Of a stretch of DNA of 64,000 bases, positions 8,405 through 26,307 are shown piece after piece. The stretch spans positions 248,001-312,000 of the forward strand of contig JARKRC010000027.1 of NCBI GenBank assembly GCA_029974595.1, given 5' to 3'. Position numbers and translations under genes: made by a program. The notes beneath the pieces are model-generated. The model did not search any database. It saw nothing but the letters and a program-made list of their open reading frames with translations, and was not told the DNA's origin. How positions within the stretch are numbered: the first letter of the stretch is position 1; each line of letters begins with the position of its first letter. The stretch is from Ereboglobus sp. GTDB lineage: Bacteria; Verrucomicrobiota; Verrucomicrobiia; Opitutales; Opitutaceae.

Positions 8405-8549
8405 GACTGTTGAAACGCGCAAATATGCGAAAAACCCACGCCGTAGCAATAGCGTGAAAAAGCCGCGAAAACTTTGACTTGAATGTATCTTGCATCTGGA
8501 TACCCAAGTCACATCCGCCTCAACCGACCCTGTTTGCTTTCACCTCAAT

Positions 8550-11500: not shown

Positions 11501-12911
11501 CGACACGCGTGTCGAAAGCGGTGTTTTGCGCGCCGCCGCGCCGGATGCTTTTGCGAGCGACTCGCATTTTTCCGTCAGCGCCGGTGGTGTGCTTGATCTC
11601 GCCGGACACAACCAAACCATCGCTTCTCTCACGACGCACGGCCTTGTCGATCTCGGCGCGGCCAGACTCTCCATTGTCGGAAATTACACCGCCGCGAGCG
11701 CAACGCTTCGACTCTCCATTGCCCTCAGCGATACCGCCGCGCCACAAGCCGGCACGCTTGCAATCAGCGGCCCGGCCACGGGAAAAACCGCAATCAGTAT
11801 CCAATTAACCGATACACGCGCCACAGCCGGTCGCTCGCCGCTTCCCGCCGGCATGCCCGCGCTTGTCACCACGGCGGCTGCGAGCCCTGGCGATGCCTTC
11901 GCGCTCGCCGGAAACCAGCGCCTCGTGGTCGGTGCCTACGATTATCTCCTTCTCCCCGTCAGCATAGTTGCTGCGCACGAATGGCGGCTTGTGCTCGACA
12001 ACTTTTCCCCGGAGATCCCCGCCGTTGCGGGCACGGATGCCATCGCCATTCAGTCAGGTCGCGCCGCGTTCGACACGCTGCTTGCGCGCTTCGATGACCT
12101 TCGTGTGTCCTCGCGCGACGACATGTCCGATCGCGCTTTCGATGTATGGGCTGATGTGTTTTACCGGCGCGACCGCATCAACGGGACGGTTTACACCGGC
12201 GCGTCCATTGACATCACCGGTTTGCAGGCGGGCGCGGGTCTCGTTCGCAAAAGCGGCAGCCGCGTTTTCCGGTTCGGTGTTTTTGCCGACATGTCCGGCG
12301 CCAACATGCAGCTTTCACGCGGCGCCAAAACCGAGGCTGTCATTCGTGGCGCGGGTCTCTACGCCACAGCTGCCGGACGCCGCTGGCACATCGACGCCAT
12401 CGTGCGCGGGGCCAAAACCAGCCACGACATTAGCGTTATGTCTGCCGCCGCTTTTTCGGCGGACGGCTCCGGTTTCGGCGCGACACTTCAGACTGGCCGC
12501 GTTTTCGACACGCGCTCCGGCTGGCGCATCGAACCGCTCGCCGCGCTCGCCTGGCAGCGCCATGCCCTTGACGACGCGACCGACAGTTTTGGCCGCATCT
12601 ACAAAGTGGACGATTTCAGCGGCATAGCCGTCCGTGTCGCCGTGGCGTTTGACAGGGCGTATCCACTCAAGCGCGGTTTGCTGATTCCGCGCGTCCGGCT
12701 GGGCGCGTTGCACGAGCTCGACGGCAAAAGTCGCGTGACGGTAGGAGGCGACACAATCGAAGCCGACTTCGGCGGCTTGGGCGCGGAAATCGACGCGGGC
12801 ATCGTGTGGCGCGTCAATAATCACTGGTCGTTTACCGCCGCGACATCGGCCCGCGCTGGCAGCCAATTCGACGGTTATTCACTGCGCCTCGGCGCGTCCT
12901 GCGGATGGTAG
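8550..12911 (+). CDS. autotransporter with chlamydial Pmp-like passenger repeats and PATR strands
   Basis: A 1453-residue outer-membrane protein. A signal peptide runs to about residue 30 (start at MRFNHSIRPAIIAGVF; an upstream in-frame ATG at 8490 gives a poorer leader). Residues about 60-310 hold repeats of the chlamydial polymorphic membrane protein type, FxxN followed by GGA(L/I/F/V), for example FSGNTAATNGGALYN and FTGNISAGNGGAIYT. Then come autotransporter-associated beta-strand repeats of the form L(I/V)KTGxGxLxL (such as LHKTGSGSLVFENAANTF). The last 270 or so residues are the secreting beta-barrel, ending in an aromatic Trp after LGASCG. The passenger should be a long beta-helix displayed on the cell; adhesion is a plausible but unproven role. 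Confidence 0.9.
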   Translation: MRFNHSIRPAIIAGVFIANIFPCHRGPLSAAPIFITTSTTSDPAPRTLNISGTYRIADSATLIFANGLGATGTDGGVFLYNTTAALALHFTPDGATDPGTNLPAGAGAVVFQNNSTGKQGGAIAITNNKVLLTLVNATFAGNRTDTGNGGALITNGTSRIHNAVFISNTSGAAGGAFYNTGNSVITRTRLDGNRSTTTGGAIHHAGNILVFTGGTFSGNTAATNGGALYNTGANTSSLLTDVLFSQNEAAAGGAVYANSGTVSIFLARFEGNAAISSHGGAVYSGTAATILTDAIFTGNISAGNGGAIYTNRGILTIRATTSATNTGNKASGATNATGGFLYITGSGATVNFDITGSATRYVIGDAGAADRTLDTIASGGSGAAATGHTIIKTGDGTLVLNADNSAYRGAVNISAGALLLGNAAAKLNAAAFTLTGGALGGQGTLSGTFDFLTSSTLFVDAGLLTITTTATTGVTLCDDAVIGGSGTLALTGANNMLNLGSGVIAVAVAASETLAVTAAFAGDGALEKRDAGLLLLTNTASTFTGGVTLSGGTLAIDNTAQLGPASGGLRFASTAAAPATLRIDAAAQTLASAIILAASSTGVIDTQGHTLTHTGALVSDAAGTLIKTGAGALNIAGDAAAFAGTLRVDQGALVVSATHFAGGISLAPDTHFETGNMLAIGGTLASDNATLSFTLYAGAASGGFLNSDRIYASAITATGSNTIDIRGFVQTGTYNLGNLAPLASTARLTVDGAEQLSDFRRKATLSVSGSLLLVETQVDMSRALYWTGATGNIWTGALAGQWTDTGTVTRFADGDRVIFQNAAVVTIVNPVTVSDISVIGGGAITFTGAAITADATSVVSGTLTGAIGRLHKTGSGSLVFENAANTFRGGITLEEGAITFSRAAQLGTAGQPIAITGNATISLAADSGETELAAPIVISHAKTATLHTAAGSALVLRGFMTGSGGLAKTGPGALTFAAPASYTGDTRVESGVLRAAAPDAFASDSHFSVSAGGVLDLAGHNQTIASLTTHGLVDLGAARLSIVGNYTAASATLRLSIALSDTAAPQAGTLAISGPATGKTAISIQLTDTRATAGRSPLPAGMPALVTTAAASPGDAFALAGNQRLVVGAYDYLLLPVSIVAAHEWRLVLDNFSPEIPAVAGTDAIAIQSGRAAFDTLLARFDDLRVSSRDDMSDRAFDVWADVFYRRDRINGTVYTGASIDITGLQAGAGLVRKSGSRVFRFGVFADMSGANMQLSRGAKTEAVIRGAGLYATAAGRRWHIDAIVRGAKTSHDISVMSAAAFSADGSGFGATLQTGRVFDTRSGWRIEPLAALAWQRHALDDATDSFGRIYKVDDFSGIAVRVAVAFDRAYPLKRGLLIPRVRLGALHELDGKSRVTVGGDTIEADFGGLGAEIDAGIVWRVNNHWSFTAATSARAGSQFDGYSLRLGASCGW

Positions 12912-13005: not shown

Positions 13006-13204
13006 ACGAACTCTGCCATGGGGCGTTTCAACGGCAGCTTTCCGAAAGATGTGAAACAGGCATTGATGGAAATGCCCCGGACATGAAAAAGCGGGTTTCG
13101 TCTTATTATGAAATTTTTTAATTACATTTATTTCTATATCTTATTAGTCGAGATTAGGCAAAGATTAGATTTGTATCTATACTAAGATGGTAGAGTATGC
13201 ATGT

Positions 13205-13367
13205 TGCGAAGAGAAACATCTCTTTCGTGCAGCATGCGACCAGACCTCTGGAGGATGCTTCAGGCCTTTTCCGACAAGGACTCTACTAAGCAAAATGTGA
13301 GTCGAGGCGCTGCTGCTCTGCCAATACCGGTAAACTGCGGGCGGCCACTTGGCGGGGAATGCCGGCA
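13205..13367 (+). promoter_or_regulatory. structured leader RNA upstream of exbB (copy A)
   Basis: The 480-base gap before exbB has an AT-rich promoter-like stretch (about 13120-13190) and then this leader. Hairpin 1 lies at about 13207-13228 (CGAA-GAGA pairing with TCTCTTTCG). Hairpin 2, at 13231-13259, has outer stem AGCAT/ATGCT and inner stem CCAGA/TCTGG, and encloses a strong GGAGG and an ATG. A possible hairpin 3 pairs GACTC (13279) with GAGTC (13299). Hairpin 2 is almost identical to one at 23488-23517 before the TonB-dependent receptor. The leader ends with a GGGAATGCCGGCA stretch that copy B also approximates. It matches no riboswitch I know. Confidence 0.6.
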
Positions 13368-13392
13368 ATAATTTAACCCAGGCATCAAATAA

Positions 13393-14082
13393 ATGAATAC
13401 CAACATCACTTTCGCATTTCTCATGGGGCAGAATCCTCTTGAGCTGTTCAAGCATGGCGGGCCGATCATGTGGCCGATCATCATCGTTTCGTTTCTCGCG
13501 CTTTCCGTGGTCGCGGAGCGCATCCTGTTTCTTCTCCGGGAGAAGGCGTCCCGCGATCCGAAAATCGCCGGCAAAATCTATGAACGGGTGGAAAAGCACG
13601 ACATCGAGGGCGCGATCAACATCGGGCAGAAAAGCAACGACTATATCGCCCGCATCCTCGTATCGGCGCTCACGCACCGGGAGTTTTCACTCGACGACGC
13701 CTTCAACCAGGCGGCCAGCAATGAGCTCGAACGCTACCAGCGCGGCCTTGCCATTCTGGACACCTGCATCACGGCGGCTCCGCTGCTCGGATTGCTCGGC
13801 ACGGTCACGGGCATGATGAACACTTTCGGCGCTCTTGGCGGCGGCGACATTGCCGCAAGCGCCGGCACGATCACCGGCGGCGTGGGCGAGGCGCTCATCG
13901 CCACCGCCTCAGGTCTCGTCATCGCCATCGTCGTGCTCTTCCCCTTCAATCTGCTCAACACCCGCATCGAGCAGGTGCGCCGCGACATCGCCAACGCCGC
14001 CAATGCCCTCAACCTGGTCGGCCAGAAAGCCGGTGGCATCCTCGACATCACCCCGGCCAGCAGCACCGGCGGAGGCATCTGA
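13393..14082 (+). CDS. exbB: MotA/TolQ/ExbB proton channel family protein
   Basis: A 229-residue inner-membrane protein, the proton-channel scaffold of the ExbB-ExbD-TonB energy transducer. Three membrane segments are visible (residues about 24-45, 112-140 and 160-185), separated by a cytoplasmic helical domain. The family signature region is DTCITAAPLLGLLGTVTGMM followed by ITGGVGEALIATASGLVIAI. A short C-terminal tail follows. It is the first gene of a plus-strand operon reaching at least to tonB and probably the TPR and coiled-coil genes. Expression may be governed by the structured leader just upstream. Confidence 0.93.
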   Translation: MNTNITFAFLMGQNPLELFKHGGPIMWPIIIVSFLALSVVAERILFLLREKASRDPKIAGKIYERVEKHDIEGAINIGQKSNDYIARILVSALTHREFSLDDAFNQAASNELERYQRGLAILDTCITAAPLLGLLGTVTGMMNTFGALGGGDIAASAGTITGGVGEALIATASGLVIAIVVLFPFNLLNTRIEQVRRDIANAANALNLVGQKAGGILDITPASSTGGGI

Positions 14083-14210
14083 CAAATGCGAAATGCGGAG
14101 TGCGGAATGACGAACGCCGCCGGCGCTTCCACTTTTGCCAACACCGCCAACGCGATAGCGCCCAAATCGGGAATTCCGCACTGCTCCACATTCTACATCC
14201 CACATTCCTC
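14083..14210. repeat. intergenic palindromic element between exbB and the first exbD
   Basis: The 130-base spacer contains a left arm with AATGCGGAGTGCGGAATG (14092-14109) and a right arm around 14171-14207 (ATTCCGCACTGCTCCACATT and a further CACATTCC). The arms are imperfect reverse complements. The pattern of short AATGCGG units is typical of dispersed noncoding repeats. It is unusual to find it inside an operon where the other spacers are 20-75 bases; it may form an internal mRNA hairpin. Confidence 0.55.
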
Positions 14211-14212
14211 CG

Positions 14213-14650
14213 ATGGCCATCTCCGTCAAAGCCTTCACCGACGAATCCGCCGCCAAAAAGCGCGCCCGCATCGAGATCATTCCGCTCATCGACGTCATCT
14301 TCTTCCTGCTGGCGACCTTCGTCCTCTTCACCCTTTCGCTCAATCAGTCGGGGGGGCTGGCCGTGCTCATGCCCGCGGCCGAGACGAGCCGTCCTCGCGA
14401 TGCCGATGGCGCAGTCACGCTCACCGTCACCGCCGATGGTGCGATTGCCTGGGACAAAACCCTCGTCTCCCTCGATGAATTCATCCCGCGCCTTCAGGCG
14501 TGGAGACAGGCCGAGCCTGATCCCCGTGTTCTCATCAACGGCGACGAAAACGCCCTCTTCTCGCAGGTGCGCTACGTCGTGGATGAAGTCCGCAAGGCCG
14601 GCATCACAAAAATCAACATAGAAACACGCATCCGTTCCACCGCCAGATAA
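14213..14650 (+). CDS. exbD: ExbD/TolR-type biopolymer transport protein, first copy
   Basis: A 145-residue inner-membrane protein with one N-terminal membrane helix and a periplasmic domain. RIEIIPLIDVIFFLLATFVL holds the conserved proton-carrying Asp. The periplasmic part (residues 60-140) ends with VVDEVRKAGITKINIETR, normal for ExbD. It works with ExbB to energise TonB. A second, related exbD follows 45 bases downstream. Confidence 0.93.
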   Translation: MAISVKAFTDESAAKKRARIEIIPLIDVIFFLLATFVLFTLSLNQSGGLAVLMPAAETSRPRDADGAVTLTVTADGAIAWDKTLVSLDEFIPRLQAWRQAEPDPRVLINGDENALFSQVRYVVDEVRKAGITKINIETRIRSTAR

Positions 14651-14695
14651 CCGCCCGTAATCCAAGCGGGCCCCGCCCATCACGTCCGACATCAC

Positions 14696-15130
14696 ATGGC
14701 TTCATCTTCACATTTATCCGCCGTCCGCAAAAAAGCCCGGATCGAGATCATTCCACTCATCGACGTCATCTTTTTCCTGCTGGCGACCTTCGTCCTGTTC
14801 ACCCTTTCGCTGAACAAAATCCAGTCCATCCCGGTGGACTTACCGCAGGCCACGCCAGCCACGGCCGCCGCAAAAAACGATGAGGAGAACCTGGTTATCC
14901 TCCAGCTCTCGGATGCCAGCACGGTTTTCTGGAACAAGGAGCCCATTTCCCTCGGTGAAATCGTTCCGCGTCTGTTTGATTTCAAGGCCGCCCATGCCAC
15001 GCCGCGCGTCCTCGTCACCGGCGACGACCATGCCACCTACGGCGCCGTGGTCCGGGCGCTCGACGAAGTCCGCAAAGCCGGAATCAACGAGGTATCCATC
15101 GAGACCATCTGGCGCGCTTCCGGCCGCTGA
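14696..15130 (+). CDS. exbD: ExbD/TolR-type biopolymer transport protein, second copy
   Basis: A 144-residue paralogue of the preceding gene. The membrane helix is almost identical (KKARIEIIPLIDVIFFLLAT, with the functional Asp), while the periplasmic domain has diverged. Tandem exbD genes are known in Bacteroidetes and other TonB-rich phyla and may form mixed ExbD pairs inside the ExbB pentamer. The next gene is tonB, 52 bases downstream. Confidence 0.93.
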   Translation: MASSSHLSAVRKKARIEIIPLIDVIFFLLATFVLFTLSLNKIQSIPVDLPQATPATAAAKNDEENLVILQLSDASTVFWNKEPISLGEIVPRLFDFKAAHATPRVLVTGDDHATYGAVVRALDEVRKAGINEVSIETIWRASGR

Positions 15131-15182
15131 CCCCGCCGGCTCTCTCTGCACATTGCCTCCTTATTGTCCGATCCTTTTCCTA

Positions 15183-15869
15183 ATGAACCGCGACCAACTC
15201 ATCGGCATCCTCATCGCCTTGCTGATCCACGCAGGATTCGTTTTTGGCCACCATCTTATTCCAGATGGCACTGGCAAAAAAAACGCCGCCGTCGAGGACG
15301 TTCCCACCATCGCCGTGACCCCGATGCCCATCCTGGAGCCGGAGCCGCCCGATCCCAGCGAGGTGGACACGCTCGCCGAGGCCGAGCCGACCGATCTCTC
15401 CGACCTCGCTCCTCCCCCTATGCAAGCGGACACACCCGCCGTCGTCGCTTCCACGGCCTTCCAGCAAAAACTCCAGCCGCCACCGCCGCCGAACTTGGGC
15501 GGGCCCACAGGCGCCATCACCATTCCCAAGGGTAATTTCAGCGCCGCCGCCGGAACCGGGCTCAAGGGCCTTTTTGACCTCGCCGCGCTCGATCAGAAGC
15601 CGGCGCCGCGGTTTATCGCCAAGCCCACCTACCCTTACGAAATGCGCCGCGCCCGCATAAACGGCGAAGTCGTGGTCGGGTTCATTATCGATTCGGAAGG
15701 CAATGTGCTCAACCCCTACATCATCAGTTCCACCAACCCCGCCTTCGAGGCCGAGGCCCTCCGCGCGATCGGCCGCTGGAAATTCCGTCCGGGCAAAAAA
15801 AACGGGGTCAACGTCAGCACCCGCAACGTCCAGGTCCCCTTGGCTTTTAATCTGACCAGCGGCGCCTGA
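15183..15869 (+). CDS. tonB: TonB family energy transducer
   Basis: A 228-residue periplasm-spanning protein. The N-terminal membrane anchor is MNRDQLIGILIALLIHAGFV, with a His where TonB has its SxxxH motif. A Pro/Glu/Asp-rich spacer covers residues about 40-105 (EPEPPDPSEVDTLAEAEP, then QPPPPPNLGG). The C-terminal TonB domain starts at PTYPYEMRRARINGEVVVGF and includes AIGRWKFRPGKKNG. The spacer is short for crossing the periplasm. The start is chosen at the membrane anchor; the frame is open further upstream without homology. It should serve the receptor at 23719 and possibly the pectin-locus receptor. Confidence 0.92.
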   Translation: MNRDQLIGILIALLIHAGFVFGHHLIPDGTGKKNAAVEDVPTIAVTPMPILEPEPPDPSEVDTLAEAEPTDLSDLAPPPMQADTPAVVASTAFQQKLQPPPPPNLGGPTGAITIPKGNFSAAAGTGLKGLFDLAALDQKPAPRFIAKPTYPYEMRRARINGEVVVGFIIDSEGNVLNPYIISSTNPAFEAEALRAIGRWKFRPGKKNGVNVSTRNVQVPLAFNLTSGA

Positions 15870-15896
15870 CTGCCGGCGCGCCTCCTTCTTATATCA

Positions 15897-17267
15897 ATGC
15901 CGCTCTTCCGCAACACCACCTTCGCCGTCCTCCTCGTCCTCGGCCTGCCGACTCTCGCGTCCGGCGGCCCTGATGGAGCCGAGCCGCCAAAACCGCAGCT
16001 CACCGAACGTGTCTCCACCAAGCTCGCGCCACTGAAAGACCTCGTCGACACCAACGACTACGCCCGTGTCCTCCGTCTCGTCGAGGAACTCCTCCCCGGC
16101 ACCGAGTCTGAGAGTTTTGACCGCGCGCTCCTCTCGCAAATCCACGGACAGGTCCTCCTCAACCTCAAGCGCAACGCCGACGCCATCGCGCCCCTCGAGC
16201 TCTCCCTCCAACTCGGCGACGGCCACGCCTATTTCGATACCGAAGCCACCCTCAATACGCTTCACACGCTCAGCCAGATCTACTTCGAAAAAGCCTACGA
16301 CGGCAAGGACCCCGCCGAACGCCGCCGTTACTACGATCTCGCCTACGCACGCATCAAACGCTGGCTTGCGACAACCCCGAAGCCGACGGCCGACGCCCAG
16401 CTTTACGCCGCCACAATCCTGTATTCAGCCGCCACCCTCGACACCGCGCATCCCGATCTCGAAAAAATCCGGCAGGCGAAGGCCGACGCCGAAGCCAGCC
16501 TTCTCCTCCGCGACAAGCCCGATGAACAGGCCCTTGTCCTCATCGTCGCCGCCCAGCAACAACTGGGCCAGCTTCGGGAGTCCGCCGACATCCTGGAATC
16601 TCTCGCTGCGCGCAAACCCACATCCGCCATCTACTGGCAGCAGCTTTTTGCCACCTATTCAGGACTCGCCATCGAACCCGGGCGCCCGCCCAGCGAAATC
16701 CGGCGTTTCCACCTCCGCGCCCTTCTCACGATCGAACGCGCCCGAGCCCACGGATTTCTTTCCACTCCCCAGGACTACTTCAACACCATCGCGCTCCACA
16801 GCGCCTTGGGCCAGCACACCTGCGCCGCGCGCCTGCTTGAACAAGGCCTTGCCGACGGCACCATCGCCAGCAACCGCCGCAATTGGGAGCTCCTATCCAG
16901 CGCATGGCAGCAACAACGCGCCACCGGCCGCGCTATCGAAGCCCTCACGCGCGCGGCGGCCGCGCTTCCCGATGACGGAGAAATCGAATACTCCCTCGCG
17001 CGCCTCTACTACGCCGAGGACAAAACCGCCGAGGCCTACGCCCACCTCCGCGCCGCGGTGGAACGCGGCCAGCTCACCCAACCAGGCCAGACCTGGTTTT
17101 TCCTCACCTATATCGCCTATGAACTCCGGCTCTTCGAGGAAGCCGCCCGTTATGCCGAGACCGCGGCCGCCCACCCCGATGTTTCCCGGGAGGATATCAC
17201 CCGCCTCGCCCAGGCCATCCAGGATGCCTTGGCCGAAAAAAACGCCCCCGCCGGCGCATCAGCTTAA
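15897..17267 (+). CDS. secreted tetratricopeptide-repeat protein
   Basis: A 456-residue protein with a signal peptide (MPLFRNTTFAVLLVLGLPTL, cleavage near ASG). The rest is helical TPR-like repeats, clearest at residues 40-130 (ALLSQIHGQVLLNLKRNADA) and 330-430 (EIEYSLARLYYAEDKTAEAY, then LFFEEAARYAE-like units). It follows tonB by 27 bases and precedes two coiled-coil proteins, so it is probably part of the same transcript. A periplasmic scaffold linking the TonB complex to the envelope is a reasonable guess, but no direct evidence for a partner exists. Confidence 0.75.
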   Translation: MPLFRNTTFAVLLVLGLPTLASGGPDGAEPPKPQLTERVSTKLAPLKDLVDTNDYARVLRLVEELLPGTESESFDRALLSQIHGQVLLNLKRNADAIAPLELSLQLGDGHAYFDTEATLNTLHTLSQIYFEKAYDGKDPAERRRYYDLAYARIKRWLATTPKPTADAQLYAATILYSAATLDTAHPDLEKIRQAKADAEASLLLRDKPDEQALVLIVAAQQQLGQLRESADILESLAARKPTSAIYWQQLFATYSGLAIEPGRPPSEIRRFHLRALLTIERARAHGFLSTPQDYFNTIALHSALGQHTCAARLLEQGLADGTIASNRRNWELLSSAWQQQRATGRAIEALTRAAAALPDDGEIEYSLARLYYAEDKTAEAYAHLRAAVERGQLTQPGQTWFFLTYIAYELRLFEEAARYAETAAAHPDVSREDITRLAQAIQDALAEKNAPAGASA

Positions 17268-17286
17268 ATTTTAAACCTAAACTCGA

Positions 17287-17811
17287 ATGAAATCCTACGT
17301 CCTCCTTCCTCTCGTCGCCGTCATCGTCTTTGGCGCCATTTATTGGAATTTCGAGCGCAACTACGAAGCGCAAGCCGCCGAGGCCCGCCAGCAGGCGCGC
17401 ATCGAAAAAGAAAACAAGCTCAAGGCCGAGGCCGAGGCCCGGACCAAAGGCGTGGAGGAAGCCCTCCAGCTTCAGGCCCGGCGCAAAAAGGCCCACGAGG
17501 AGCGCGACGCCCGCGAAAAATCACAAAAGGAAGCCCGCCAGGCCGCCATCGACGCCCGGGATAAAGTTCACCGCGATGTCGAGAAAACCGCCCGCCAGAT
17601 CGACCGGATCAAAAAGGAGATTGCCGAGGAGAAAAAAGCCCTCGCCGGGATCGAGGCCGGATACAAGGACACCCTGGCCGAGCAGGTTTTCCTGAAAGAT
17701 TATATTGCGCGGGCCCAGGCCAACCTCCGCGACCTCGAAGCGCTCATAACCCGGCTCAACCAAACCCCCGCCGCCGCCGCCGCCGCCGCCACCGTCGCCC
17801 AGAAACAATAA
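17287..17811 (+). CDS. membrane-anchored coiled-coil protein, first of a pair
   Basis: A 174-residue protein with one N-terminal membrane segment (KSYVLLPLVAVIVFGAIYWN) and then a charged coiled coil from about residue 25 to 155, very rich in Ala, Glu, Lys and Arg. It ends in an Ala/Pro-rich tail. It lies 19 bases after the TPR gene. The next gene encodes a protein of the same design. No enzymatic motif is present. It may be a periplasmic spacer or tether in the TonB system. Confidence 0.72.
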   Translation: MKSYVLLPLVAVIVFGAIYWNFERNYEAQAAEARQQARIEKENKLKAEAEARTKGVEEALQLQARRKKAHEERDAREKSQKEARQAAIDARDKVHRDVEKTARQIDRIKKEIAEEKKALAGIEAGYKDTLAEQVFLKDYIARAQANLRDLEALITRLNQTPAAAAAAATVAQKQ

Positions 17812-17885
17812 CATCATCAGCCCGATCGGCCCCACCCGTCAGAGCCGTCCCATCCGTCCCATTTCAAACTCACACCATAATTTTC

Positions 17886-18416
17886 ATGAATCGTTTTTAT
17901 ATAATAGCGCCGCTCATCCTTCTCGCCGTCTTCGGGACCGTTTTCTGGCAGAATAATAAAGCCGCCGGGGCCAGGGCCGCGCAAATCGCCGCCGAGCGCG
18001 CCGTCGTCGAGACGGCCGAACGGCAGAAGAAGGAGGAGGCCGAGCGCAAGGCCCGCGAGGATGCCGAGAAGCGCGCCGCCGCCCGCGAGGCCGAGGAACA
18101 GAAGAAGGAGGAGGAGCGCCAGCTCAAATGGGAGGCCGACCTCGCGCGCATCGCGGCGGAAAACGCGCAATACCAAGCAGAGCTCGCCGCCGGCACCCGG
18201 GAGCTCGCCGGCCTCGAAAAACAGCTCGCCGGGCTTCGCTCCGAACTCGAACGCCGCGGCGGCGAGATCTTTGACGCCGCGCGCGGCACCGAGCTGCTGG
18301 CCGTCGAAAAACGCAACACCGAACTCGAAATCCAGCGCCTCGTGCAAATCGTCGCGGCCCGCGCCGCCATCAACGCCGCCGCCGTCAGCCCGAACCAGAC
18401 CCCCACCATTCCATGA
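17886..18416 (+). CDS. membrane-anchored coiled-coil protein, second of a pair
   Basis: A 176-residue protein of the same architecture as its upstream neighbour: membrane segment YIIAPLILLAVFGTVFWQNN, then a long Glu/Lys/Ala coiled coil (residues about 25-95) and a second heptad-rich part (ELAGLEKQLAGLRSELERRG). The two look like diverged duplicates. Its stop overlaps the start of the binding-protein gene by 4 bases (18413-18416), which ties the TonB part of the locus to the ABC-transporter part. Confidence 0.72.
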   Translation: MNRFYIIAPLILLAVFGTVFWQNNKAAGARAAQIAAERAVVETAERQKKEEAERKAREDAEKRAAAREAEEQKKEEERQLKWEADLARIAAENAQYQAELAAGTRELAGLEKQLAGLRSELERRGGEIFDAARGTELLAVEKRNTELEIQRLVQIVAARAAINAAAVSPNQTPTIP

Positions 18417-19270
18417 GACACCCGAAACCGCTCCTTCCATTTCTGGCTGCCGCCGTTCTTTTCGGCTTCGGCTTATTGGCCATGGTCAATGTCGGCTGCT
18501 CCCGCAGAAACGACGCCGACAGCCTCGCAAAAATCAAAAACCGCGGCAAAGTCGTCGTCGGTGTTTTTGGTGACAAACCGCCCTTTGGTTATATCGACCG
18601 GCAGGGTCGCAACGCCGGTTACGACGTCGTGCTCGCGCGTCGGATCGCTGCGGATCTCCTCGGCGACGAAAACAAAATCGAATTTATCACGCTGGAGGCC
18701 GCCAATCGCGTGGCTTTTCTCCAGTCGAACAAGGTCGATATCATCCTCGCCAATTTTACCCGGACGCCCGAGCGCGCCGAAAAAGTCGATTTTGCAAAAC
18801 CTTATATGAAAGTCGCGCTCGGCATCGTCGCTCCGGATGCGAGCCCCGTCAGCGCGCTTGCCGGGCTCGGCGGCGGCAGGACTCTCATCGTCAACAAAGG
18901 CACCACTGCCGAGGCATATTTTACCAAGAACTATCCCGAAATAAAGCTCCTCAAATTCGACCAGAACACCGAGGCGTTCCAAGCGCTCAAGGATGGCCGG
19001 GGAGACGCCCTGGCGCACGACAACACCCTGCTCTTCGCCTGGGCGCACGAGAACAAGGGTTTCAAGATCGTCGAGTCGAACCTCGGCAATGCCGACGTCA
19101 TCGCCCCTGCCGTGAAAAAAGGCGACACGGTTCTTCGCGCCTGGATCGACGCGAAAATAGACAGACTCGCCGCCGAGCACTTCTTTCTGAATGCCTTCCA
19201 GACCGAGCTTCATCCCTTTTTTGGGGATTCGGTCAGAAACCCCGACGATGTCATCATTGAGGGGAAGTGA
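18413..19270 (+). CDS. periplasmic amino-acid-type substrate-binding protein of an ABC importer
   Basis: A 285-residue SBP_bac_3 family protein. After a hydrophobic leader (LLPFLAAAVLFGFGLLAMV) comes VNVGCSRR, where a Cys could be lipidated although the lipobox is poor. The family core begins KIKNRGKVVVGVFGDKPPFG and continues GYDVVLARRIAADLLG, ILANFTRTPERAEKVDFAKP and LIVNKGTTAEAYF. Proteins of this family bind polar or sulfur amino acids. The cognate permeases and ATPase lie 2 kb downstream. The ligand is unknown; the neighbouring OsmC protein hints at a thiol or sulfur compound. Confidence 0.88.
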   Translation: MRHPKPLLPFLAAAVLFGFGLLAMVNVGCSRRNDADSLAKIKNRGKVVVGVFGDKPPFGYIDRQGRNAGYDVVLARRIAADLLGDENKIEFITLEAANRVAFLQSNKVDIILANFTRTPERAEKVDFAKPYMKVALGIVAPDASPVSALAGLGGGRTLIVNKGTTAEAYFTKNYPEIKLLKFDQNTEAFQALKDGRGDALAHDNTLLFAWAHENKGFKIVESNLGNADVIAPAVKKGDTVLRAWIDAKIDRLAAEHFFLNAFQTELHPFFGDSVRNPDDVIIEGK

Positions 19271-19356
19271 AGGCAGGGCAGGAATGTGCCAGCAACAAAC
19301 ACCATCAACATAAAATCAACTCCGTATTCGTTGGTCGAATACTTGATTCGAAATCC

Positions 19357-20604
19357 ATGAAAAACATACGATTCCTTATCGCAGCCGCCTTCTCCGTGGC
19401 CGGCTTGCAGACACTGATCCACCAGCCGCTCCGCGCGCAGGCGACGCACGCCTCGCAGGACTGGGCGCAATCCCCGGCTGGATACGACGAGAGCCGTTCC
19501 CTGCGGGATTATCAGGCGCGTTTGCGCTCGGCGCTTTTTCTGCTTGAGGGGAACACAGAGCTGGAGCAGCCGCTCAAGCTTTCCGCGCGTGTCACGGCGA
19601 TCGGGCGCACGGGCATCCGCCGCCTGCGCATCCGCAATTTCCAGATTCTCAGCGACGGAGGAAGGGATACCGCCGAATTCAACCTGGGGGCCGGTTCCTG
19701 GCCCAGCGTGGTTGGCGCGCTTGGCAGCGCCGTGGCCGGGGATTACCTGGTCCAAGCCGCGATCAAGGGCATCCCCATCGACGGGTTGGAGGTTGTCTTC
19801 ACCAGCCGCCCCGGCACCGCGCCCTCGCAGACCACCGGCACCCAAGTGACCTATCCCCGCAATCTAGCCTATACGGCCTTCATTGTCTCGCCAGCCTCGG
19901 ACGCCGAACTCGAAGACTTGCGGCAGACTGTCGAGCGTGCTTCCCCGGTAATTCGTCTGGTCCGCGAAGCCCAGCACATCGAACACGGCAAGCTGTTCCT
20001 TACCCAGACTCCCAACAAACGCGACCCCAAGACCCTCGACGGCTTGCGCGAATTTCTGGCTGACAAATACGCCGCCTCCCAAGGCGCGGTTCCCCTCGAG
20101 GGATCGGGTCCGGCTCGCAATCCCAATGATTGGAGACCGCCCCTGCGCGCCCACGTCAAAGTCGAAGGCGGCACCGGCATCCGGCACATCCGCACCGACA
20201 CCAGCAATTTTCAGGTCATTCACGATTATCCGCGCTACCTCGCAGGGCATAACCTCGGCCCGGTGCCCGAAGAGCACATCCTTGGGACGATGATCACCTG
20301 CCTCACCCACATCTATGAAATCGTGGCCTCCCAAAAGCAGGTGCGCCTGGACTCCCTGGAACTGGAGGTCGAAGGCACGCTGAGCACCCGCCTCGGCAAT
20401 GTCGGAAAACCTCCGATCTACAAGGACATCGCCTACCGCGTGTATATCGGCTCTCCCGAGCCCAAGGAAACCATTGAGCAGCTTCAGCGTGCCGTGGAGT
20501 CCATCTGCCCTATTTATAACATGCTGAAAGATTCCCAGCCGGTGAAAGGCACCATCGTCCGCGGCCCCTACACCGAGGAAAAGGAAAGGACGGCTTACCA
20601 ATAA
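19357..20604 (+). CDS. secreted protein with two OsmC-like domains
   Basis: A 415-residue exported protein starting at MKNIRFLIAAAFSVAG with a cleavable leader. The C-terminal half (about 250-410) reads as an OsmC/Ohr domain: GHNLGPVPEEHILGTMITCL carries the first thiol and ESICPIYNMLKDSQPVKG the second, with the usual spacing. The first half (about 60-235) has the same pattern (GSAVAGDYLVQAAIKGIPID, TVERASPVIRLVREAQH) but both cysteines are gone, so it looks like a degenerate duplicate. OsmC proteins normally reduce organic hydroperoxides in the cytoplasm; export and duplication are odd. It lies inside the ABC importer locus. Confidence 0.7.
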   Translation: MKNIRFLIAAAFSVAGLQTLIHQPLRAQATHASQDWAQSPAGYDESRSLRDYQARLRSALFLLEGNTELEQPLKLSARVTAIGRTGIRRLRIRNFQILSDGGRDTAEFNLGAGSWPSVVGALGSAVAGDYLVQAAIKGIPIDGLEVVFTSRPGTAPSQTTGTQVTYPRNLAYTAFIVSPASDAELEDLRQTVERASPVIRLVREAQHIEHGKLFLTQTPNKRDPKTLDGLREFLADKYAASQGAVPLEGSGPARNPNDWRPPLRAHVKVEGGTGIRHIRTDTSNFQVIHDYPRYLAGHNLGPVPEEHILGTMITCLTHIYEIVASQKQVRLDSLELEVEGTLSTRLGNVGKPPIYKDIAYRVYIGSPEPKETIEQLQRAVESICPIYNMLKDSQPVKGTIVRGPYTEEKERTAYQ

Positions 20605-20652
20605 GCCGCGCGTTCTTTGACTCGCTTGGAACAGCATGACAGCATCAAAATC

Positions 20653-21170
20653 ATGACCGGCGGCGAAGACCCATTACCTTCCTGCTCGGATTTCGGCCTC
20701 GTTAACTGCTACAGCCGCGACCGCCGCTTCCCGCCCTTCTGCCAGGGCGAGGCCGCCGATCCTGATCTTGCCGGTACCGTGCTCGACCGTTATCAGGATG
20801 GCGGCCCTGACGCCGTCATGGCGCGCGCCGCCATCGAGGTGGAGGGCACTTATTACGGGCGTCTCACGCGAGTCGAGGAGATCATCGCCTTTGCCAACCG
20901 CATCGGCGTTCCTGAGTCGTTCAAGGTTCGACCGGGAGGCCACGAAGCCTTTGGCAACCCGAGCCTTCGGGTCAACCGCTGGAAACTCCAGCTCAACGTA
21001 ATCGTGGGTCTGTGCGTCGGGCAGAGCCCCTGTTTATCAAGCACTTCGACACGCTCTTCCCTCTCGTCATTGTGGACGAGGCCCATCTTGACTACACCGA
21101 CGACCACGAACGCGCCATTGCCGTCGTCCGGCGGCTGTTTTCCGCGTCCGAGGCGGGGCGGCCGCACAAT
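20653..21170 (+). pseudogene. decayed DUF1847 metal-binding protein gene
   Basis: The N-terminal part resembles DUF1847: CSDFGLVNCYSRDRRFPPFC, then AAIEVEGTYYGRLTRVEEII and AFANRIG. About 55 expected residues are then missing, and the frame resumes with NPSLRVNRWKLQLNVIVGLC. Near 21030 a one-base shift moves the rest (PLFIKHFDTLFPLVIV) into the frame of the downstream permease. Deletion plus frameshift argue for a dead gene, although the 5' frame still encodes a 187-residue product. Intact DUF1847 proteins have Cys clusters suited to a metal or Fe-S centre. It sits between the OsmC gene and the permeases. Confidence 0.65.
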
Positions 21171-21215
21171 TGGCTTTGGGAAAATTGCTGCGTGTCTCCA
21201 CGCTTTCCAACCCTG

Positions 21216-21881
21216 ATGCCCGACATCGACTTTGAATTTATCGTGATCCACCTCCCTCATTACGGGAGGGCGCTGCTGCTCACGCTGGCGCTCGGCCTCG
21301 GGGCCATCCTTGGCTCGCTGCTGGTCGGATTGCCGGGCAGCTTGATTCTTCATTTTCGCGCGCCGGTTCTCCGGCGCGTGGTCGCGGCTTATGTCGAGTT
21401 TTCGCGCAACACCCCTCTTCTCGCCCAGCTTTTCTTTCTTTATTTCGGCCTGCCCGCCGTGGGCATCAAATGGAGCGGCTTCACCTGCGCGCTGACCGGC
21501 CTCACCTTTCTTGGCGGCGGTTACATGATCGAGGCCCTGCGCGCCGGCATCGAAGCGGTGGGCCGCCCGCAGATCGAATCCGCGCTCAGCATCGGGCTCT
21601 CCCGCCCGCAGATCGCGCGTCTCGTCGTGCTTCCGCAGGCGCTGGCCTCCGCCGTGCCCGCGCTCGCCGCCAACTGCATTTTTCTCCTCAAGGAAACCTC
21701 CGTCGTGGGCATCATCGCCGTCGCCGACCTCATGCATCTCACCCAGGGCCTCATCGGGCTTTATTACAAAACCACGGAATCACTCCTGCTCTTGGTGGCG
21801 GGTTACGTGATCCTGATCGTTCCCGTCTCGCTGCTCTTCTCCCGGTTGGAAAAGGCGGTGCGCCGCGCGGAGTTCGGCTGA
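21216..21881 (+). CDS. amino-acid-type ABC transporter permease (HisM/GlnP family), first
   Basis: A 221-residue inner-membrane permease with five or so hydrophobic helices. The cytoplasmic coupling loop (EAA motif) reads EALRAGIEAVGRPQIESALS followed by IGLSRPQIARLVVLPQALAS. The frame is open far upstream through the decayed DUF1847 gene; I start at MPDIDFEFIVIHLPHYG, where family similarity begins. It is followed after 19 bases by a second permease, giving a heterodimeric channel as in the Glt and His systems. Confidence 0.9.
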   Translation: MPDIDFEFIVIHLPHYGRALLLTLALGLGAILGSLLVGLPGSLILHFRAPVLRRVVAAYVEFSRNTPLLAQLFFLYFGLPAVGIKWSGFTCALTGLTFLGGGYMIEALRAGIEAVGRPQIESALSIGLSRPQIARLVVLPQALASAVPALAANCIFLLKETSVVGIIAVADLMHLTQGLIGLYYKTTESLLLLVAGYVILIVPVSLLFSRLEKAVRRAEFG

Positions 21882-21900
21882 CCAACCTCTTTGGACAAAA

Positions 21901-22554
21901 ATGCTCCACGCGCTTGAACTACTCTGGCAGAACGCGCCGCTGTTGCTCGACGGGCTTTGGGCGACGCTCGGCATCGCGGCGGCGGCCACGTTTTTTTCGA
22001 TCATCGGCGGCGCCCTTCTCGGCATGATGCGCGCGTCATGGAATAATGCGATTGTGCAGGCCGCCGCCCGCGCCTACCTCGAACTTTTTCGTGTCATCCC
22101 GATCCTGGTGTGGCTCTTTGTTTTCTTTTTTGCCGTGCCGGCGGCCTCTAGCCTCGACATCTCCGGCACGCTTGCCGCGGTGACCGTGTTTTCGCTTTGG
22201 GGCGCGTCGGAGATGAGCGACATCGTGCGCGGCGCGCTCAAGACCATCCCGCAGGCGCAATACGACGCCGGGCGCGCTATCGGCCTTTCCGGCGCGCAAC
22301 TCCATTTGCGCGTCATCCTTCCGCAGGCCGTGCGGCGCATGCTGCCGGGGGCCATCAACCTTGTCACCCGCATCATAAAAACCACCTCGCTCGTCGTGAT
22401 CGTCGGTGTGGTGGACGTGGTCAAGCGCAGCCAGCAGATCATCGAGCGCACCAAGGAGCCTTTCGTGCTCTACGCCTTCTTGCTGCTCCTGTTTTTCGCC
22501 CTCTGCCATCCGCTTTCCCGTCTCTCGCGCCGGCTCGAAAAGAGATTCAATTAA
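21901..22554 (+). CDS. amino-acid-type ABC transporter permease, second
   Basis: A 217-residue partner permease of the same family. Its EAA loop is [20 protein letters not shown] with [20 protein letters not shown], and the preceding membrane helices are well formed. The end, [15 protein letters not shown], is a normal basic C-terminus. The stop is 4 bases before the ATPase start, so the two are translationally close. Confidence 0.92.
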
Positions 22555-22558
22555 AAAA

Positions 22559-23311
22559 ATGACGACCACAGCCAACGCCCCCGTGCTCATTGACGCTGCC
22601 TGCGTGACGAAATTTTATGACACGCGCAAGGCGCTCGACAATGTCTCGCTCGCGATTCACGCGAAGGAAGTCGTGGTGATCCTCGGGCCGTCGGGTTGCG
22701 GGAAGAGCACCTTCCTGCGCTGCCTGAACGGGCTTGAAACCGTGCAGGCCGGCTCGATCCGGTTTCACGGGCGGGATTTGGCCCGGCCCGGCACCGACTG
22801 GCGTCCGGTGCGCCAGCGCATCGGGATGGTGTTTCAAAGCTACGAGTTGTTTCCCCATCTTTCCGTGCGCGATAATCTGCTGCTCGGCCCCGTGCATGTC
22901 CAAAAGCGGCCTCGCGCGGAAGCGCTCCGCCAGGCTGAGGGTTTGCTCGAACGCGTCGGGCTGGCCGACCGCCTCGACTCCTTCCCCCGCCAGCTTTCCG
23001 GCGGACAAAAACAGCGCATCGCCATCGTGCGCGCGTTGTCCATGAACCCGGAAGTGATGCTTTTCGACGAAGTCACCGCCGCGCTCGATCCTGAGATGGT
23101 GCGCGAAGTGCTCGACGTCATTCTGGGTCTGGCGAGGAACGGGATGACGATGGTGATCGTGACCCACGAGATGGGTTTCGCCCGGGCGGTGGCGGATCGC
23201 ATCGTCTTCATGGACGAAGGCCGTATTTGCGAGACAAATACACCCGTGAAATTCTTCACGGCGCCGGACACCGACCGCGCCAAACGCTTCCTCTCGCGCT
23301 TCCTCTATTAG
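22559..23311 (+). CDS. amino-acid-type ABC transporter ATPase (GlnQ family)
   Basis: A 250-residue ATPase. Walker [11 protein letters not shown]-loop [14 protein letters not shown], signature [15 protein letters not shown], Walker [17 protein letters not shown] and the switch His in [16 protein letters not shown] are all intact. The start is set at [20 protein letters not shown]; an upstream in-frame ATG lies inside the permease gene. It completes a full importer with the binding protein at 18413 and the two permeases. The next gene, 407 bases downstream, is a TonB-dependent receptor. Confidence 0.95.
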
Positions 23312-23464
23312 GCGGGCTTGTCCCTAAATTGCAGACAGTGGATGCAGGCGGGTTCGATTCTCTAAAATTAGAAATTTTAATTTTAATCATGATATTTATT
23401 TATAAATAAACCTCTTCCAAATTTATATTTGTATCTTTGCTTATATACTAAACTATTGGCCTTG

Positions 23465-23604
23465 TTAACAGGAACTCACTTCCGTTAAGCATACGACCAG
23501 ACTTCTGGAGGAATGCTATGGACCTTCCTCCAAGGTGAATTATCCGGTCACCACCAAATCCGGGCCGCCTTAGGCTGCCAATTCAACCGGGAGGGATGCC
23601 GCAT
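23465..23604 (+). promoter_or_regulatory. structured leader RNA upstream of the TonB-dependent receptor (copy B)
   Basis: The 407-base gap before the receptor starts AT-rich (23360-23455, promoter-like) and then holds this leader. Hairpin 1 (about 23464-23487) pairs TTAAC-GGAA with TTCC-GTTAA; its sequence differs from copy A but the fold is the same. Hairpin 2 (23488-23517) differs from copy A by two substitutions and one inserted base, and encloses GGAGG and an ATG. TTCCTCCA at 23525-23532 could alternatively pair with TGGAGGAA at 23506-23513, a possible switch. The frame opened by that ATG would give a 66-residue peptide ending at 23713. The rest of the gap up to 23718 is GC-rich and structured but unassigned. 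Confidence 0.6.
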
Positions 23605-23718: not shown

Positions 23719-26307
23719 ATGATCAATCCGTCCATACCGCGCTTAATGCCGCGTTTTGCTTCCCTGGCCGCATCCTTGTTGCTGCTGGATCTGCCGCCGC
23801 TCGCAGCGGCGCCCGTAACCACTCAAAATGAAGAGGTCACCGTGCTCGACAAAGTCCTCATCGAGGATGTTGACGTCGAGAAATCCGTCCTGCCGATTCG
23901 CCCGAACAATGCCTTCTACGGCTTTGACGAACTCATCAAGGACACGCCGCGCTCCATCTTTCAGGTGACGAAGGCGCAAATCGACAATGACAACTTCCAC
24001 AACTTTTCCGACTTGGCCCGCTACTCGCCGAGCATCGGCCGCGGAACGGCGTCGAACTTCTCGACCTTCGCCAAAATCCGCGGCGGCTCCGCCGATACCA
24101 CGCGCAACGGCATCCTGCTCCTCAATCCTGCGGTGCGCCCGTTCGACAACAACGCATGGGAATCCGTGGACATCGTCGCAGGCGTGCCCAGTGTCATCCA
24201 AGGCTCCACCACCCGCACGGCCGGCGTCATCAACTATGTCACGAAGCGGCCTCTCTTCGACGGCGAGCATCTGCAACTCACGACGACGCTCGGACGCATC
24301 GGCCTTGATGACCGCACGACCTACGGCCAATTCACCGTGCAGGCCGATTACAACCGTGTCCTCATCAAGGACAAGCTGGCTGCGCGAGTAAGCCTCCAGA
24401 AAACCGACGCCAGGCAATATTGGGGAAACTCCGAAAGCGACTTCGAGGATATCTATGTCGCCACGACTTGGCAGCCCAGCTCGAAGGTGACCGTTGACAC
24501 CAACTTCACTTATACGAGCTCAGGCGGCGCCATGCCCTACGGTATTAACCGCGTCACCCAAAACCTCATCGACAACTGGCTCTACGATTCCGGCCCGATC
24601 GCGCCTGTCGTCTCGTGGGACCACGACGCCAATCCCGCGACGGCGCCCATCGTTTACCGCGGCTCCGCCACTACGGGTGCCTTCACGCCTGTCGCCACCA
24701 CCGCAGTTCCCAATCCGCCGGCGGCGGCGTTCACGCAGAATAATCCTGCGGTCATCACCGGCTGGTGGCGCAATCCCAGTGAGCAGACCGGGGACGTTCC
24801 CATCGACGGCACCCAGACGCTCCACACCAACGACTCGTTCAGCGACACCTACGAGGTTATCGGGCAGAATATCGTCAATGTCCGCTTCAACGAGAACTAC
24901 TCGTTCCGCAACAACACGCTCTATCAATACAGCAAGAGCTATGTTTTTGGCTATGATGGCTACCACAGCTTCATGGTGAACAAGATGTTCACCACGCGTC
25001 TCGAATTTTTGACCGATAATACCTTCAAACTCGGCTCCGGCACGTTGCGCCACCAAAGCAACTCCGGCTTCGAATACCGCTACCTCTGGAACCTGTGCGA
25101 CAACGCCGGCAACTCCGAGCGCATGGTCAACTATGAGGACGCCTCCGATCGGGCCACCGGTGGCGGCAATCTTGGCGCGGGCAACCTTCTGGGCATCGAC
25201 AACATCTACGCGCAAGGCGACAACGGTGTCGGCACGCCCGCCGATTATTATTACCGCAACGACATTCCTTATTTCGCGATCAACAGCCCCTACTACGGCT
25301 GGCTCGCCATCGCGCCCGCCTATAATCGCGGTGACGGACGCTACGCGCAGCTCTCCTTGCGCGCCGCCAGCGGCACCGACGTGCGCCTCAACAAGCTCCA
25401 GCAATTCAACTTCTTCACGGAGCAAAAATTGCAGTGGGGGCAGTTCATCTGGCGTTTTGGCGCCCGCCTGACTGCCATTCGCGACAAGCTGGGCCCGCTC
25501 GATCCGACTTACAAAGCAGTCGCCGCCAACGTCCTGACCGGATACAACTTCGACGACAAGGTGACCGAGACCAACTACGACATCAACAGCAGCCTCACTT
25601 GGCAGCCGAAGAAGTGGCTGAGCGTTTACGGCGCTTTCGACCACGATATCGCCGCCGGCGACTGCGGCTGCTGCTTGACGCAGGGCTTCATGGCATCCAG
25701 CCCGACTGACTCAAAGGACCAGCGCCTTAACCGCGACCACTTCAAGCTCAAAAGCCAGCTGGCCGAGTTTGGCGCCAAGTTCGAAATCATTCCCGGCAAG
25801 CTCTTCGCAAACGCGGCGTGGTTTCACCAAACCCGTCATACGCCGATTTCCGTCACGGTCACCACGCCCTATGGCGGCATGAGCAAGCAGACTTTTGAAG
25901 GCATCGAGCTGTCCGCATCGTATCAACCGACGAGTAACCTCGCGACGGGCGTCAACTACAGCCATATTGCGGTCACCGAAAGCGACGGCTCGTGGGCGAG
26001 GGCCATTCCGCGCAACAGCGGCAACCTTTGGGCGGCCTACACCTTCTCCAACGGTTTCGGCCTGAAGGCGAGCGCTTGGGTCACTTCTGAATGGAAGGTC
26101 GGCACAGGCACATATGTGCCCGCGCAATACAACGTGGATACCGGCGTGTTTTACTCCTATAAGGGCTGGCGCTTCGATGTGGACGTGCTGAACGTCACCA
26201 ACGAGAAGAACTGGACGCCCGCGGGAAACTATGCCGGCGACACCATTGGCTATCTGCTGCCCGCCGAGCGCCTCGGCATGCAATTCAAGGCGACGTATCA
26301 GTTCTGA
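23719..26307 (+). CDS. TonB-dependent outer-membrane receptor (siderophore-receptor-like)
   Basis: An 862-residue receptor. A signal peptide (about 1-30, FASLAASLLLLDLPPLAAAP) is followed by a likely TonB box around NEEVTVLDKVLIED. The plug domain includes DTPRSIFQVTKAQIDNDNFH, YSPSIGRGTASNFSTFAKIR and VIQGSTTRTAGVINYVTKRP. The remaining 650 residues are the 22-strand barrel, ending in LGMQFKATYQF with the C-terminal Phe. A CGCC cluster at about residue 651 and another Cys near 460 are unusual for such barrels. The ligand is not known. Position after a complete ABC importer suggests it passes substrate to that importer. Confidence 0.9.
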   Translation: MINPSIPRLMPRFASLAASLLLLDLPPLAAAPVTTQNEEVTVLDKVLIEDVDVEKSVLPIRPNNAFYGFDELIKDTPRSIFQVTKAQIDNDNFHNFSDLARYSPSIGRGTASNFSTFAKIRGGSADTTRNGILLLNPAVRPFDNNAWESVDIVAGVPSVIQGSTTRTAGVINYVTKRPLFDGEHLQLTTTLGRIGLDDRTTYGQFTVQADYNRVLIKDKLAARVSLQKTDARQYWGNSESDFEDIYVATTWQPSSKVTVDTNFTYTSSGGAMPYGINRVTQNLIDNWLYDSGPIAPVVSWDHDANPATAPIVYRGSATTGAFTPVATTAVPNPPAAAFTQNNPAVITGWWRNPSEQTGDVPIDGTQTLHTNDSFSDTYEVIGQNIVNVRFNENYSFRNNTLYQYSKSYVFGYDGYHSFMVNKMFTTRLEFLTDNTFKLGSGTLRHQSNSGFEYRYLWNLCDNAGNSERMVNYEDASDRATGGGNLGAGNLLGIDNIYAQGDNGVGTPADYYYRNDIPYFAINSPYYGWLAIAPAYNRGDGRYAQLSLRAASGTDVRLNKLQQFNFFTEQKLQWGQFIWRFGARLTAIRDKLGPLDPTYKAVAANVLTGYNFDDKVTETNYDINSSLTWQPKKWLSVYGAFDHDIAAGDCGCCLTQGFMASSPTDSKDQRLNRDHFKLKSQLAEFGAKFEIIPGKLFANAAWFHQTRHTPISVTVTTPYGGMSKQTFEGIELSASYQPTSNLATGVNYSHIAVTESDGSWARAIPRNSGNLWAAYTFSNGFGLKASAWVTSEWKVGTGTYVPAQYNVDTGVFYSYKGWRFDVDVLNVTNEKNWTPAGNYAGDTIGYLLPAERLGMQFKATYQF

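Follow-up and report, generated by a model that had tools for sequence, protein, structure and literature searches.

Both ends of a TonB-ABC import locus in Ereboglobus sp. (Opitutaceae; contig JARKRC010000027.1, forward strand positions 248,001 to 312,000, a stretch of 64,000 nucleotides (nt) referred to here as the window) carry the same small hairpin element, once ahead of exbB and once ahead of a TonB-dependent receptor gene. Our data suggest, with a probability of roughly 70%, that this element is a conserved cis-acting leader RNA of a sulfur-acquisition regulon in Opitutaceae and their relatives. At the level of sequence it has a structure with covariation, a fixed orientation and an association with sulfur genes; a covarying structure that stands before functionally related genes in the same orientation is what marks a predicted cis-regulatory leader RNA. 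The original prediction, made from the window alone, had proposed a cis-regulatory RNA that coordinates the TonB machinery with the receptor. Its cis-acting structured leader was recovered, but the regulon is one of sulfur acquisition and not only of TonB import.

The two leaders, A before exbB and B before the receptor gene, comprise the following features, where R1 is a covariance model of 25 positions:

13170..13195, forward strand: promoter- or operator-like block TTTGTATC then ACTAAGATGGTAGAG, upstream of leader A (putative role; alignment with leaders of the TonB-dependent receptor and exbB type)

13207..13227, forward strand: 5' hairpin H1 of leader A (sequence)

13231..13259, forward strand: conserved hairpin, copy A, core CGACCAGACCTCTGGAGGA at 13237-13255, R1 match at 13233-13257 (sequence, pattern search, model R1)

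23428..23456, forward strand: promoter- or operator-like block TTTGTATC then ACTAAACTAT, upstream of leader B (putative role; same alignment)

23465..23488, forward strand: 5' hairpin H1 of leader B (sequence)

23488..23517, forward strand: conserved hairpin, copy B, core CGACCAGACTTCTGGAGGA at 23494-23512, R1 match at 23490-23514 (sequence, pattern search, model R1)

Both conserved hairpins are present where the original prediction had placed them, each with a second hairpin directly 5' of it, and their likeness is far above chance. The 19-base core of both copies is CGACCAG-N4-CTGGAGGA; written as CGACCAGAC[C/T]TCTGGAGGA, it occurs exactly twice in the window. A search for CGACCAGACNTCTGGAGGA allowing up to three mismatches gave two window matches, both exact, against 0.02 expected from shuffles. 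When leaders A and B were compared with at most one mismatch the longest match was 19 nt (one mismatch), whereas 40 shuffles reached 13 nt and 40 other pieces of the window 14 nt. R1, whose training set includes both copies, scores them at 30.4 and 29.0 bits and reaches at most 14.2 bits elsewhere in the window.

Other details of the leaders fared less evenly. The differing H1 stems had been read as compensatory change; two sequences alone cannot prove covariation, but the exbB-leader orthologue in genome G046 keeps H1 with changed letters. H1 of leader B is near-identical in its G046 orthologue. Of the two sequence blocks said to be shared downstream, GCCAAT is absent from both G046 orthologues, whereas GGG(G)ATGCCG is kept in both and may be real, though it is known from the G046-type subgroup only. 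The hairpin does literally bury an ATG, as claimed, but the gene starts are elsewhere, at 13393 for exbB and 23719 for the receptor, 137 and 206 nt from the respective cores. The block TTTGTATC, with ACTA-like repeats after it, lies about 60 nt before each leader core and recurs in relatives; its resemblance to a promoter carrying an operator of the Rrf2 type suggests that it may be one.

Pattern searches show that the core recurs in related genomes (genome counts for the family are here taken to be for Opitutaceae). The exact core (15 specified bases) has 21 occurrences, spread over 12 of 252 family genomes, and a reversed-pattern control has none; with up to two mismatches the core was found in 38 of 200 family genomes, many of these by chance. 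Exact copies number three each in G005, G053 and G107, and two each in G046, G029 and the window's own genome, G000. The latter has a third copy of the element, C52, with a CCGG:CCGG stem, before an operon encoding a porin, Sbp and a sulfate ABC transporter; C52 scores 23.8 bits (E 0.027) under R1 and was part of its training set. A search of G000 with the 15-base core part at up to two mismatches returned the window copies and a single two-mismatch place, not above the reversed control (3 versus 6), and a BLAST-type search of the same genome with the whole of leader A gave nothing but leader A itself above noise. Scanning named genomes for promoter plus core, a scan that may omit the window's own or very near records, returned only Geminisphaera colitermitum TAV2, with three stretches. 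For later tests we assembled a non-porin set of 24 leaders, the two window copies and 22 others, some with one or two core mismatches and one (L067) with an uncertain gene; L057, L061 and L068, which were judged coding, and most two-mismatch matches were left out.

A complementary test started from the sulfate-binding gene Sbp. An Sbp from a leader-bearing locus matched 120 of the 252 genomes at E 1e-40 or less, and about 3.6 kb upstream of Sbp was fetched for 60 genomes, some of these regions being shortened by contig ends. The core with up to two mismatches was present on 12 of 60 sense strands and on none of 60 antisense strands, and with up to three mismatches the counts were 20 and 5; three of the 12 sense matches (G149, G122 and G013) were motif matches known beforehand. 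The good cores lie about 1.5-1.65 kb upstream of Sbp, immediately before the first gene of the operon; this gene was tested in three family loci (L129, L133 and L155), and in each it proved to encode a Porin_O_P porin. A porin start could be assigned, in some cases by hand, in 50 of the 60 regions. Among these 50 porin leaders the downstream hairpin P2 is found in 37 and the upstream hairpin P1 in 28, with both in tandem in 25; in 14 of the 37 the distance from the end of P2 to the AUG is 33 nt. The porins of the L129, L133 and L261 sulfate operons have the selenite/tellurite-operon porin ExtI as best named relative, under cut-off, which fits an oxyanion channel.

The genes behind the leader indicate that the regulon is largely one of sulfur acquisition, comprising a sulfate porin with its ABC transporter, sulfonate-type uptake, cysteine and methionine enzymes and TonB parts. 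The leader precedes exbB in L050, L051 and L056 (Pfam MotA_ExbB), a TonB-dependent receptor gene in L052, L054 and L065, a sulfonate-type binding protein gene in L053 and L055 (SsuA_fam, under cut-off) and a sulfate-binding protein gene in L066 (TIGR00971, 487 bits against a cut-off of 155.5). The L069 leader stands after a gene for a pyridoxal phosphate (PLP) enzyme that reads as cysK (Pfam PALP 2.8e-68) and before a DUF3034 gene and a PLP enzyme of Cys/Met metabolism, and the L217 leader precedes a protein 81% identical to the solute-binding protein of the window. The porins, Rrf2 genes, exbB and receptors were first named by reading and later confirmed by family search. HGD-D/BadF proteins (2-hydroxyglutaryl-CoA dehydratase type) were also seen behind the leader in L059, L060 and L062, the last by reading, with an NMT1 binding protein beside that of L060.

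The hairpin folds into an outer stem, an asymmetric GA/A internal loop and a four-pair CCNG:CNGG stem, usually closed by an NCCN loop of 4 nt. It is single at the window loci and at the third copy in the same genome, and doubled as a P1-P2 tandem before porin-Sbp-sulfate ABC operons. A relaxed core, ACC-N-G-N(4-6)-C-N-GG, occurs 69 times in sense and three times in antisense in the 50 porin leaders, against a mean of 3.3 in shuffles. The letters of the free pair are complementary in 56 of these 69 (C-G 24, G-C 17, A-T 15), compared with 29% in shuffles. Alignment A3 holds 60 hairpins, 59 of them distinct, taken from 62 after removal of L121, which does not resemble the motif, and L176, a letter-for-letter duplicate of L122. 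Here pair 10-17 is A-U in 37, C-G in 18, G-C in three and U-G in one, and pair 5-21, which lies across the GA/A loop, is C-G in 41, U-A in 16 and otherwise in two. The sulfate hairpins in A3 were picked with pairing required, a requirement that the relaxed-core count dropped at the third pair; because part of A3 was chosen by pairing, pair 10-17 is better judged from the relaxed-core count. The porin rows were selected without regard to pair 5-21. The covariation score of A3 is 0.337, against 0.148 when shuffled and at most 0.098 when slid. The tandem alignment A4 (23 leaders, being the 25 tandem leaders without L127 and L143, which differ in length) gave 0.287 against 0.104 shuffled and at most 0.082 slid, with seven double-change pairs against 4.5 in shuffles, a number that 3 of 500 shuffles reach. 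A recurrent structured leader with covarying pairs is found upstream of transport genes in related genomes.

Palindromic DNA also keeps complementarity, and the main rival to a leader RNA is that CCNG-N4-CNGG acts as DNA rather than RNA, being an operator, for instance for a neighbouring Rrf2 regulator. All six loci checked (L066, L235, L261, L262, L264 and L267; Pfam Rrf2 9e-26 or better) have an Rrf2 gene upstream of the leader, and the best named relative of the L235 protein, under cut-off, is the cysteine regulator CymR. Nevertheless, we regard an operator as unlikely. The flanks of the palindrome are asymmetric (GA against A) and the closing pair 5-21 covaries across this asymmetry; the loop of P1 varies in length, a search confined to loops of 4-6 nt having found 4 nt in 7 of the 28, 5 nt in 10 and 6 nt in 11; CCAG:CTGG and CCGG:CCGG stems are mixed within one genome (G000 and G005). 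Furthermore, orientation relative to the gene is fixed, and in leaders of the exbB and TonB-dependent receptor type the element lies some 60 nt past the promoter-like block.

We then consider how far the element extends, using R1 and a tandem model, R2, whose E-values are rough by the tool's own statement. The original prediction had suggested searching Opitutaceae genomes with a covariance model; this located the element family-wide and also in other families of the order and class. In the 252 family genomes R1 found 72 places at E 0.005 or less against about 1.3 expected, of which 45 were training members or identical to one and 27 were not; at E 0.5 it matched 170 of the 252 genomes, largely within chance. 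The 72 R1 places were compared with 48 Sbp places, a selection from genomes with R1 matches: 42 of the 72 share the strand of a selected Sbp and stand no more than 3.5 kb ahead of it, and no such place was seen on the opposite strand. At class level 384 genomes were scanned and 46 had an R1 match with E no higher than 0.01, about four being expected; 37 of the 46 are outside the family. Of 51 R1 places outside the family 38 were listed, and 22 of these 38 were read. Eleven were judged to be leaders (L229, L230, L232, L233, L234, L235, L240, L243, L246, L248 and L249), two were unclear (L236 and L241), eight were judged chance or coding, and L237 was not located. Four genes of the class leaders were tested, giving Porin_O_P or OprB porins in L232, L243 and L249 and the Rrf2 gene upstream of L235; the genes of the other class leaders are porin-like by reading only. 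The tandem was visible by eye in L243, L246 and L249.

Run against 387 genomes of the phylum, R2 had matches with E no higher than 0.01 in 23 and none in the window's own genome. Thirteen genomes were at E 3e-4 or less, 11 in the family (three of them training rows) and two in the same order (G299 and G404). In these two, and in G444 with its weaker match, Pfam identifies an Rrf2 gene on the upstream side. Downstream, G299 has a Porin_O_P porin, G404 a gene that reads as porin-like and G444 a sulfate-binding protein (TIGR00971, 448 bits). Several other weak R2 matches look like chance. One weak match (E 0.004) in another class of the phylum, L268 in G703, is a P1-like hairpin before a secreted protein and a ModA-like binding protein, both named by reading.

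The shortness of the core could point to a chance match or the end of a mobile repeat, and some matches do fall, by reading, in coding DNA (three of the 21 exact-core places, L075, L076 and L079, and among the eight class loci judged chance or coding). For the strong set of matches such an origin is highly improbable, since reversed-pattern, antisense and shuffle controls are near zero and the copies share little past the leader and sit before related genes.

No catalogued RNA family was matched by the element in our scans, in agreement with the original prediction, which had recognised no known class. Rfam 15 models at gathering threshold gave no matches in the window or in 17 related loci, and scans at loose E-values gave low, unrelated scores only. 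A literature search on the topic returned no description of the element; as its coverage fell short of most subscription papers and preprints, this is not proof that the element is unpublished. The guanidine-II riboswitch (mini-ykkC) likewise has two short hairpins with 4-nt loops. These are ACGR tetraloops, which are not seen in our element, the loops of P2 being mostly NCCN, and the scans made gave no Rfam match at gathering score. Leader sites of CsrA/RsmA resemble the element in having a GGA beside a hairpin upstream of genes, but here the GG of GGA is within the invariant stem. CsrA was rejected as the binder; it was found in 8 of 14 genomes tested and was not found in G000 (96% complete, with three element copies) nor in five others. 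ANTAR-target RNAs (EutV, NasR and AmiR leaders) are alike in placing two small tandem hairpins in the mRNA leader of nutrient-related genes and are described as bound by a protein dimer and as having hexanucleotide loops with A1 and G4 (PMC3369931). In contrast, our element has a 4-nt loop, mostly NCCN, and if its loop is read as six, all 62 hairpins have G at position 1, and at position 4 there are 45 with C and four with G, so that identity with ANTAR targets was rejected. A search for ANTAR domains found none in 14 genomes, with control genomes equally silent. The STAS-associated sulfate riboswitch candidate of Streptomyces shares a proposed RNA control linked to sulfate, but is described as a three-stem junction that includes a putative ribosome-binding site (PMC11109978), and is set apart from our element by that description rather than by sequence comparison.

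Recurrence with covariation, the logic of the regulon and the lack of an Rfam class would also suit a metabolite riboswitch whose ligand, bound by one hairpin or by the pair, is a sulfur metabolite (cysteine, O-acetylserine or sulfate, for example). Against this, conservation covers only about 15 bases, there is no general alternative pairing, and distances to the gene vary widely. The competition proposed between GGAGG and TTCCTCCA found no clear support: TTCCTCCA exists in copy B, but its pairing there does not clearly exceed shuffles (p 0.12), and in copy A the pairing is not seen (p 0.93). A general GGAGG:CCTCC switch was likewise rejected, reaching p <0.1 in only 6 of 24 non-porin, 1 of 36 porin and none of three order-level leaders. 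So was a long-range closing stem, P0, around H1 and the core, which had been suggested by eye in leader A and in the leader B pair (24 leaders, mean z -0.38, not significant). In L261, L262 and L267, all of them order-level leaders, one more hairpin, GUUUCGUUCC..GGAAAGAAAC (GGAAAGAACC in L267), is the third and stands directly before the start codon and holds a Shine-Dalgarno-like GGAAAG; it would fit translational control there, and in a riboswitch it could be the expression platform. On balance we consider a metabolite riboswitch a tentative possibility on these comparisons, and a protein-binding hairpin appears at least as likely. More doubtful is the bolder proposal of a new riboswitch class in which paired GA/A-loop hairpins would sense a sulfur metabolite and control the whole sulfur-import programme of Opitutales. 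We know of no riboswitch for cysteine, O-acetylserine or sulfate itself.

The GGAGG also raises attenuation by a leader peptide, with GGAGGA as the ribosome-binding site of a short upstream open reading frame. GGAGG is followed by ATG or GTG in the window copies and in L053, L066, L159 and L168. However, reading of L054, L055, L059, L065, L133 and L136 found no start codon at a kept distance, and type-2 leaders have GGGAAG in place of GGAGG, which makes a leader peptide very unlikely.

For the leader RNA that we favor, we propose that the element would be transcribed as part of the mRNA leader and would control expression after initiation, with a sulfur-status signal acting through it. Most likely a trans-acting RNA-binding factor would recognise the internal loop and stem, and once bound it would change the translation, stability or read-through of the leader; such a factor is probably dimeric, because hairpins of one design are often paired. 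A number of results weigh against a leader RNA of this kind. In A3, double-change pairs (5 versus 4.9) and further pair types (16 versus 16.5) are not above shuffles, and the further pair types of A4 (13 versus 11.3, reached by 95 of 500 shuffles) are not clearly so. The inner C-C:G-G pairs are invariant and so uninformative for or against the fold, and in the outer stem 31 of the 59 A3 rows lack pair 3-23 and 37 lack pair 2-24. Of the 42 Sbp-linked R1 places, 31 are training members or identical to one and 11 are not. Ten of the 50 porin leaders have neither hairpin, some perhaps from wrong starts. P1 could in part be the terminator of the upstream Rrf2 gene, T runs following in some copies. 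Finally, hairpin-to-start distances are 26-66 nt for porins, often more than 100 nt in leaders of the exbB and TonB-dependent receptor type, and 137 and 206 nt in the window, a spread that one common geometry of translational control does not accommodate.

The genes of the window locus that bear on its function are:

13393..14082, forward strand: exbB, the first gene past leader A (Pfam MotA_ExbB 1.5e-28)

18413..19270, forward strand: amino-acid-type solute-binding protein (Pfam SBP_bac_3 1.1e-26)

23719..26307, forward strand: TonB-dependent receptor, the gene past leader B (Pfam Plug 9.9e-8)

The best NCBIfam match of the solute-binding protein is lysine/arginine/ornithine (1.9e-33) and the next is cystine (1.6e-25), both under cut-off. 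A sulfur role for the transporter is suggested because the leader is shared. The receptor is 90% identical to the G046 receptor behind the same leader, and the TonB-ABC locus of the window appears to be one branch of the sulfur-acquisition regulon. A large open reading frame at 8490-12911, which reads as autotransporter-like, stops some 300 nt short of leader A. Another with a partial DUF1847 match (20617-21216) overlaps the start of the permease reading frame (21012-21881), possibly through a frameshift or a wrong start.

Collectively, the element would provide an uncatalogued and testable case of RNA-based control over sulfur supply in Verrucomicrobiota; for this phylum the literature searched holds little on RNA regulation. 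It would unite uptake of the porin, sulfate, sulfonate and TonB-dependent kinds in a single regulon, and the presence of the leader permits a tentative assignment of receptors, such as that of the window, to sulfur nutrition. Should the ligand prove to be a metabolite, the leader would represent a new riboswitch class; should a protein bind it, that protein would be a new RNA-binding regulator.

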